Source of the DNA: Bacteroidota bacterium
GTDB lineage: Bacteria; Bacteroidota; JABWAT01
NCBI GenBank assembly: GCA_017303995.1
Contig: JAFLBE010000003.1
Location: forward strand, 62,001 to 126,000
DNA: 64,000 nucleotides
Reading direction: 5' to 3'
Within the stretch, counting starts at the first letter, position 1; every line of letters begins with the position of its first letter. Position numbers and translations under genes: made by a program. Shown here piece by piece: positions 56,459 through 62,103 of this stretch. The notes below the pieces were generated by a model. That model ran no database searches. It was not told where the DNA came from and saw nothing but the letters and a program-made list of their open reading frames with translations.

Positions 56459-56484
56459 GGACTATAAAGAACATTTTCTAAACG

Positions 56485-56510
56485 AAAAATCCCGAGAAAC
56501 CGGGATTTTT
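56485..56510. terminator. Intrinsic terminator after the tRNA-Gly repeat array
   Basis: AAAAATCCCG and CGGGATTTTT form a perfect 10-base stem with a six-base loop; the T-rich arm works in both directions. On the minus strand it follows the second tRNA-like copy by four bases, so it defines the 3' end of the tRNA-Gly transcript. Confidence 0.85.
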
Positions 56511-56514
56511 TAGA

Positions 56515-56600
56515 GCGGGAAACGAGACTTCCCGATCTTCGGGACGACATCAACCTTGGCTGGTGTCACTGGTTTCCTATAACAAAATCAAGAACGAAGA
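56515..56600 (-). repeat. Degenerate tRNA-Gly-derived repeat, copy 1
   Basis: An 86-base unit that shares the 3' half of tRNA-Gly: the acceptor 3' strand with adjoining T-stem bases (TCTCGTTTCCCGC) and the anticodon-stem/variable segment (CCAAGGTTGATGTCG). The T-loop is replaced by the perfect hairpin TCCCGA-AGA-TCGGGA, and the 5' half no longer pairs. It is about 90 percent identical to the neighbouring copy. Confidence 0.85.
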
Positions 56601-56686
56601 GCGGGAAACGAGACTTCCCGACTTTCGGGACGACATCAACCTTGGTTGGTCTCACTGGTTTCCTATAACTAAAACAAAAACGAAGA
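56601..56686 (-). repeat. Degenerate tRNA-Gly-derived repeat, copy 2
   Basis: Second 86-base unit, starting exactly 86 bases from copy 1 and 86 from the 3' end of the true tRNA gene. It has the same hairpin in place of the T-loop (TCCCGA-AAG-TCGGGA). The final base doubles as the discriminator of the functional tRNA-Gly gene. Confidence 0.85.
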
Positions 56687-56758
56687 GCGGGAAACGAGAC
56701 TCGAACTCGCGACATCAACCTTGGCAAGGTTGCGCTCTACCAACTGAGCTATTCCCGC
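56686..56758 (-). tRNA. tRNA-Gly (GCC)
   Basis: A 73-base tRNA with acceptor GCGGGAA/TTCCCGC, discriminator T, anticodon stem CAACC/GGTTG with loop TTGCCAA (anticodon GCC) and T-loop TTCGAGT. It is the intact unit of an 86-base tandem array. A well-formed promoter lies upstream. Confidence 0.95.
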
Positions 56759-56776: not shown

Positions 56777-56807
56777 CAAAGATACGGCAAAGATTTATCG
56801 TGCGCAA
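56777..56807 (-). promoter_or_regulatory. Bacteroidota-type promoter of the tRNA-Gly array
   Basis: On the minus strand TTG (56805-56807) and TATCTTTG (56777-56784) are separated by 20 bases. This matches both elements and the spacing of the TTG / TAnnTTTG promoter of Bacteroidota, the best such match in the window. Transcription would start shortly before the tRNA 5' end at 56758. Confidence 0.7.
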
Positions 56808-61854: not shown

Positions 61855-62103
61855 ATTCTTTTCTTTCGTTAGGTTGGACTTCCCCAAAAAGTCTGAATAC
61901 ATGGATGAGCTTCGCAGAACTTCGTTAACCGGATCCCCGATCCCGATTCTCGGGACGGGGCAGGCTAAGTCCGGGATGACATCTCTATATTTTCAATTCC
62001 TCGGTAAAAATCATGAAACATTACGGGAAAATTCTGTAACAGTTCTTTCCTGATTCTTCCTCATCTTTGTATATCGATTTTCACATTAACCAAAGGAGCA
62101 AAG
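61855..62103. other. Intergenic region before the copper genes
   Basis: 249 bases between the HMA-AraC gene and the CopZ-like gene. It contains the REP-like palindrome, and near its right end CATCTTTG (62062-62069), one base from the -7 consensus, as a weak promoter candidate for copZ-copA. No reading frame was found. Confidence 0.5.
61935..61960. repeat. REP-like palindromic element
   Basis: CCCCG, an unpaired A, then TCCCGA, a TTC loop, TCGGGA and CGGGG form a long GC-rich hairpin in otherwise AT-rich DNA. It is followed by a GTCATCCCGGAC-like segment (inverted, 61969-61982). The core TCCCGA/TCGGGA is the same as in the tRNA-Gly-derived repeats. It looks like a dispersed intergenic repeat between the regulator and copZ. 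Confidence 0.6.

Follow-up and report, generated by a model that had tools for sequence, protein, structure and literature searches.

An intact tRNA-Gly(GCC) gene lies in the window, by which we mean the whole 64,000-nucleotide stretch of Bacteroidota DNA that was analyzed, and it is followed on the same strand by two 86-nt units that resemble broken copies of its 3' end (psi units). Its neighbors in the window are tRNA-Cys, tRNA-Leu, and tRNA-Val genes, a ThrRS-like ORF (the name is read from its translation), and response-regulator genes. The features of the locus are as follows:

56685..56758, minus strand: intact tRNA-Gly(GCC) (ARAGORN; Rfam RF00005, 70.4 bits); 77 nt identical to the empty-site congener G002
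56598..56683, minus strand: psi unit 1, an 86-nt direct repeat consisting of a 31-36 nt spacer, an anticodon-arm remnant, a palindrome, and a tRNA 3' end
56631..56647, minus strand: tRNA-derived remnant AACCAAGGTTGATGTCG of unit 1 (sequence; repeat family D3)
56616..56630, minus strand: palindrome TCCCGAAAGTCGGGA of unit 1, in place of the T-arm 5' strand and loop (sequence; psi pattern)
56598..56615, minus strand: displaced tRNA 3' end AGTCTCGTTTCCCGCTCT of unit 1, the same as that of the intact tRNA (repeat family D2)
56512..56597, minus strand: psi unit 2, 92% identical to unit 1
56530..56544, minus strand: palindrome TCCCGAAGATCGGGA of unit 2 (sequence; psi pattern)
56512..56529, minus strand: displaced tRNA 3' end of unit 2, joined to native downstream sequence (repeat; the native junction is visible in G002)
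about 56484..56511, minus strand: native terminator of the tRNA-Gly unit, AAAAAATCCCGG...CGGGATTTTT (directly behind tRNA-Gly in G002)
56777..56807, minus strand: promoter motif TTGCGCAC...TATCTTTG (TTGCGCA...TATCTTTG), its core invariant in an alignment of four related genomes

Anatomy of the array

The final 18 nt of the tRNA region occur three times in register, at spacings of 86 and 86 nt. A preliminary description of this DNA had reported an intact tRNA-Gly(GCC) and two copies with an exact 86-base period, about 90 percent identical to each other, which keep the 3' half of the tRNA, have a replaced T-loop, and are degenerate in their 5' half. The tRNA calls, the spacings, the measured identity, and the repeat families agree with that account, with one small correction: the array extends over 56512-56758 rather than 56515-56758, a shift of 3 nt. 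The covariance-model check proposed for the copies matched the intact tRNA only: neither ARAGORN nor Rfam RF00005 called a tRNA in the two psi copies, which lack the cloverleaf of a functional tRNA gene.

Both units end in the terminal tRNA 3' end, with TCCCGAnnnTCGGGA in place of the T-arm. Read on the tRNA strand, CGAGTTCG of the tRNA is swapped for TCCCGAAAGTCGGGA or TCCCGAAGATCGGGA, and this 15-nt palindrome and GTCG stand before the 18-nt tRNA end. In the 5' half, AACCAAGGTTGATGTCG or a variant of it is the sole tRNA-derived part left, and the anticodon-arm remnant AACCAAGGTTGATG is the only tRNA-like stretch upstream of the palindrome. There is no recognizable ORF remnant in the 31-36 nt spacer. 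Signs of a MITE were sought in the array, but the unit ends carry no inverted repeat and the direct repeat is the tRNA end. An Rfam match to the rimP leader at 56465-56542 was rejected; it falls under the gathering score (E 0.42) and overlaps the terminator.

One promoter and one terminator enclose the array, as had been suggested: the motif at 56777-56807 is common to four genomes and resembles the Bacteroidota consensus, and the terminator lies at about 56484-56511. Cotranscription of the units with tRNA-Gly in the window is plausible.

The locus and its sister arrays in related genomes

In a congener, G001, the window locus holds three units with a body different from that of the window units and the same psi T-arm, whereas no array is present at this locus in the congener G002 or in G003, a member of the same family. 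The tRNA-Gly(GCC) of G002 is identical to the window tRNA over 77 nt, and tRNA-Gly and tRNA-Cys lie 55 nt apart at this empty site versus 226 nt in the window, a difference of 2 x 86 nt apart from one A in the terminator. Because the locus differs between congeners and the G002 site is empty, the sequence comparison indicates that the window array is a recent, polymorphic insertion. No GIY-YIG ORF was found within the window or at the window locus in any congener. An assembly artifact, which would have undone the preliminary description, is unlikely: many independent assemblies show this architecture, in one case inside a 3.86 Mb contig (L088).

Similar arrays stand at other tRNA genes. Behind tRNA-Gly(CCC) of the window's genome come a terminator and then two units with GTCGTCCCGAGAATCGGGAAACCTCG, one complete and the other truncated; in G002, two units follow this tRNA. 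At the tRNA-Gly(CCC) of G001 (L041 620-1250, G001:C21), the number of tandem psi units is six to seven, and every unit has a terminator of its own; this array is among the longest nuclease-free arrays seen. A terminator lies ahead of each copy in the Gly(CCC) and Asp arrays, and since the copies of the Gly(CCC) arrays stand behind terminators, such units are not generally transcribed together with the tRNA.

The orthologous tRNA-Asp locus occurs in several states: psi-psi-ORF-psi in G000, ORF-psi-ORF and onward to the contig end in G001, psi-psi without an ORF in G002, and a broken ORF and psi in G003. An ORF-less array is therefore one state of the same locus. Relatives are thus polymorphic for presence and absence at both the window locus and the Asp locus, as seen in four genomes.

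Complete elements encode a small GIY-YIG nuclease

In G045, the first relative outside the family, a GIY-YIG ORF lies between tRNA-Gly(GCC) and a psi unit. In other families, for example, Balneolaceae (L184, L099, L101, L102, and L109), this tRNA likewise has an ORF, accompanied by the same psi type; the window array has the ORF-less form at a tRNA that carries complete elements there. A PF01541 search of the window's own genome found seven short GIY-YIG ORFs. Four of these are ordered tRNA, terminator, ORF, psi-tRNA 3' end, and duplicated terminator (at Ala, Ser-GGA, Ser-GCT, and Asp), and the remaining three are distant paralogues without the tRNA-ORF-psi arrangement.

The proteins have about 80 residues and a single domain, with the GIY-YIG core residues intact. 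Four related ORFs score 39-59 bits against PF01541 (cutoff, 22.6), with Y5, Y16, G18, R26, and E62 invariant; the GIY-YIG catalytic domain is thus a feature of the full elements and is not found inside the window. Where it could be computed, dN/dS was 0.03-0.37, mostly near 0.1, and the ORF is under purifying selection. A phage origin of the proteins was considered and rejected; the closest phage matches were <60% identical and came from 8 unannotated records.

Two loci deserve separate mention. At L088 2839-2865, the TAG stop codon of the ORF apparently falls within the palindrome (CCCGACTAGTCGGG), so that the C-terminal residues of the nuclease would come from the tRNA remnant. At L216 1489-4252 (G052:C34), there are eight tandem GIY-YIG ORFs with a period of ~365 nt and tRNA T-arm ends between them; ARAGORN called no intact tRNA there.

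Census across genomes and phyla

A degenerate pattern for the psi T-arm, which required no ORF, gave 34 matches in 17 of 394 genomes of the phylum; read backwards it gave none, so the matches are not due to chance. On inspection, nearly all 34 sites had a tRNA-Gly or tRNA-Asp gene, then a GIY-YIG ORF, and then the psi unit, on one strand and often repeated; one long contig carried five GIY-YIG ORFs in a row with a 315-nt period.

When one genome per species was scanned for the nuclease, 188 relatives were confirmed and 80 of these were retained, from Bacteroidota, Cloacimonadota, Patescibacteria, Ignavibacteriota, Nitrospirota, Fidelibacterota, Chlorobiota, Balneolota, and other phyla. These relatives and the ORFs from the genome searches make up a census of 147 ORFs. 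A tRNA gene lay within 400 nt of 112 of the 147, a proportion (76%) that describes this set and not small GIY-YIG proteins in general, since the loci were picked by similarity to five tRNA-adjacent proteins. At an estimated ~45 tRNA genes per genome, such adjacency would occur in about 1% of cases by chance. The strand agreed in all 112 cases, with the tRNA upstream in 57 and downstream in 55, and the break points were fixed per lineage, so that the ORF has a fixed position in a conserved target gene. Most of the other census ORFs were inner units of arrays, lay near contig ends, or were distant paralogues.

A psi fragment was present on the far side of the ORF at 91 of 102 loci, compared with 3 in the reversed-region control. 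This is the arrangement of gene-end duplication, in which the replacement end is carried and the displaced end is left past the ORF. Among the inserts that split the psi-tRNA, 36 of 39 were palindromic (stem of at least 5 pairs), versus 15% of shuffled inserts. The median break fell at 0.66 of the tRNA length when the tRNA was upstream and at 0.29 when it was downstream. In the latter, mirror-image class, the 5' part of the tRNA is copied upstream of the ORF, mostly ending at position 22 in the D-loop, and the break is followed by a palindrome such as CCTGCCTGCCGGCAGGCAGG. These medians suggest that the shorter tRNA end mostly comes with the element while the displaced one stays behind, with exceptions such as L149, L194, and L206. 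At L203, L127, L137, and L093, the pseudo-tRNAs have a palindrome in two or three loops (anticodon, variable, and T-loop), as if each had been broken separately.

Nuclease lineages and the palindrome

The protein tree of the nucleases (78 columns) is weakly resolved, and only counts of changes were taken from it. It required 30 changes of tRNA isotype, compared with a mean of 73 (minimum, 66) after shuffling, and 14 changes of side, compared with 37.6 (minimum, 30). The Asp nucleases of Cloacimonadota and of the window's phylum group together, and the Gly(GCC) and Asp nucleases are neighbors; both of these tRNAs have the T-arm CGCGAGTTCGAG and the same psi palindrome. Break points likewise follow nuclease lineage, with the D-loop used for Arg and the T-loop for Gly, Asp, Ser, and Ala. 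The lineages track isotype more than phylum, and the tRNA ends are too conserved to indicate whether the supplied end is foreign.

In the Gly(CCC) and Asp arrays, the palindrome of the psi T-arm is TCCCGAGAATCGGGA. In the genome, 32 dispersed copies of this palindrome were found (one at window 61941-61955), often inside larger G+C-rich palindromes, with none in the reversed control. Given this dispersal, the palindrome may be a repeat of separate origin that became established in the psi copies. Compensatory change was considered as evidence of RNA structure and set aside: the sixth stem pair alone varies (AT in 35, CG in 4, GC in 1, and others in 3; n = 43), and nothing can be inferred from this variation because the search pattern fixed the first five pairs.

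Discussion

The reading that we favor, and consider probable, is that the window array is a tandem, ORF-less (nonautonomous or decayed) derivative of a small GIY-YIG homing element seated in tRNA genes. A complete element would comprise a single-domain GIY-YIG gene of ~80 codons, a copy of the tRNA end that it interrupts, and a palindrome bordering the displaced end; the tRNA end that it carries would rebuild an intact tRNA gene. The architecture, the D-loop mirror image, the strict strand agreement, the nuclease lineages specific to isotype, the purifying selection on the ORF, tandem amplification with and without the ORF, and orthologous presence and absence all support this reading. The preliminary description had listed remnants of repeat integration at a tRNA end among its suggestions, which appears essentially right, the agent apparently being a GIY-YIG nuclease element and not a phage-type integrase.

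Cleavage and mobility are inferred from these sequence patterns. The nuclease would cut tRNA gene DNA in the T-loop (or D-loop), and repair of the break from an element-bearing copy would insert the cassette. The duplicated tRNA end could provide homology for capture of the second end while the host tRNA stays in working order, and the palindrome would abolish the cut site of the displaced end. If repair then paired the repeated tRNA ends out of register, arrays could expand, shrink, or lose the ORF, giving psi-only units such as those in the window. Several observations count against parts of this scheme. The link between the window array and complete elements consists of the shared psi structure and the Asp locus, not of direct descent. 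The intact tRNA next to an element still has the supposed cut site (the tRNAs of the window and of the empty site are identical), and the scheme gives no account of how self-cutting would be avoided. Finally, the cassette includes a duplicated, host-specific terminator, which is awkward for a move to a new isotype.

A simpler history, in which slippage duplicated the tRNA 3' end, the dispersed palindrome later invaded the copies, and the nuclease genes are separate guests of tRNA loci, would suit the 32 scattered copies of TCCCGAGAATCGGGA against none in the reversed control, as well as the near identity of the two tandem window units. We regard it as unlikely, since the same palindrome occupies the exact T-arm position in tRNA-Gly(GCC), Gly(CCC), and Asp of many genera beside a nuclease ORF, and the palindromes sit at breaks specific to the nuclease lineage (the D-loop in Arg; the T-loop in Gly, Asp, Ser, and Ala).

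It is improbable that the units function as small RNAs (tRNA-derived regulators, decoys, or stable products of processing) that are cotranscribed with tRNA-Gly. They do lie between the tRNA promoter and terminator with no strong terminator intervening, and each has a closed fold of two to three hairpins (z, -2.0 and -1.1); the true tRNA folds more strongly (z, -3.1). The earlier proposals of tRNA-derived small RNAs or processing decoys find little support, given that the non-tRNA body is wholly different in G001, that the array is absent from G002 and G003, and that the same psi form stands behind nuclease ORFs in many phyla. A conserved small-RNA function was rejected, as the units are not conserved in the genus and terminators precede every copy in the Gly(CCC) and Asp sister arrays. 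An RNA role of the window units is thus unlikely, and the cell probably tolerates them without any benefit.

We give very little credence to stacked att sites left by repeated integration of a phage or island (tyrosine recombinase) at the tRNA-Gly 3' end: tRNA 3' ends classically serve as att sites, and the 18-nt tRNA end repeated here looks like an att core, but no tyrosine recombinase accompanies that core among the window neighbors, the ORFs at related loci encode GIY-YIG nucleases rather than integrases, the breaks are in the T-loop with a rebuilt palindrome or in the D-loop, and the host terminator is duplicated with each unit, which att core exchange would not do.

The homing element reading has precedents. 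T4 SegB is reportedly a free-standing GIY-YIG homing endonuclease of T-even phages, described by Brok-Volchanskaya in 2008. The elements described here share with such a system a free-standing GIY-YIG gene by tRNA genes. According to the available text of a report on SegB, this phage enzyme brings about tandem amplification of tRNA segments through breaks and recombination, with tandem tRNA-nuclease amplification and microhomology between tRNA and nuclease gene ends (PMC13096335). SegB acts in phage genomes on a tRNA cluster, whereas here a single tRNA gene is split, and a palindrome-broken tRNA copy or a rebuilt tRNA end is not reported for SegB in that text (PMC13096335). Mobile ORF elements with gene-end duplication are known from mitochondria, in atp6 of Allomyces and in atp6, atp9, cox2, and nad3 of Glomus; an endonuclease ORF (in one case GIY-YIG) sits in the gene, carries the replacement end, and displaces the native end downstream (PMC3630166). 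Those elements occupy fungal mitochondrial protein genes and are mostly LAGLIDADG (PMC3630166). The elements described here, unlike them, have bacterial tRNA genes as seats, an 80-codon GIY-YIG ORF, palindromes at the breaks, mirror-image 5' and 3' versions, and tandem arrays. By analogy, the anatomy matches that of a homing element carrying the end of its host gene, and the tandem growth matches SegB.

Two bacterial repeat systems are also similar in part. The tyrT locus of Escherichia coli has 178-bp tandem repeats with the tRNA-Tyr 3' end (rtT RNA); like the window units, these lie behind a tRNA gene and each holds its 3' end, but they are longer, and we know of no nuclease or T-arm palindrome associated with them. 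RAYT, an HUH (Y1) transposase, acts in trans on REP palindromes, which likewise are small palindromes tied to a small nuclease gene and have nuclease-free copies; in place of HUH (Y1), the present elements have a GIY-YIG domain, and they insert only in tRNA genes.

A free-standing homing nuclease with gene-end duplication is thus an already known kind of element. In the open-licence literature searched, we found no description of GIY-YIG elements at bacterial tRNA genes, of the tRNA pseudo-copies, or of the tyrT repeats, an absence that is weak evidence, and tRNA neighborhoods are not discussed in the available text of a GIY-YIG phylogenomics paper. That literature apparently contains no account of the tRNA seat, the locking palindrome, the pair of mirror classes, or the wide distribution. 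More tentatively, at somewhat less than an even chance, we suggest that these elements form a class of tRNA gene parasites present in many phyla (Bacteroidota, Balneolota, Chlorobiota, Ignavibacteriota, Cloacimonadota, Nitrospirota, Fidelibacterota, and Patescibacteria), in which a minimal GIY-YIG cassette would split a tRNA gene at the T-loop or D-loop, rebuild it from its own copy of the shorter end, lock the displaced end with a palindrome, and give rise to nuclease-free, self-amplifying satellites such as the window array.

If this is correct, it would explain the clustering of such small GIY-YIG proteins at tRNA genes, in Bacteroidota as in other phyla, and would provide a bacterial counterpart of the mitochondrial homing elements that replace gene ends. 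Annotators would be warned that hairpin-broken tRNA ends are footprints of elements and not small RNAs, and the isotype-specific lineages would constitute a set of natural nucleases with predictable targets. A nuclease that is seated in essential, universal tRNA genes and repairs its own damage would be a compact model of harmless selfish DNA.
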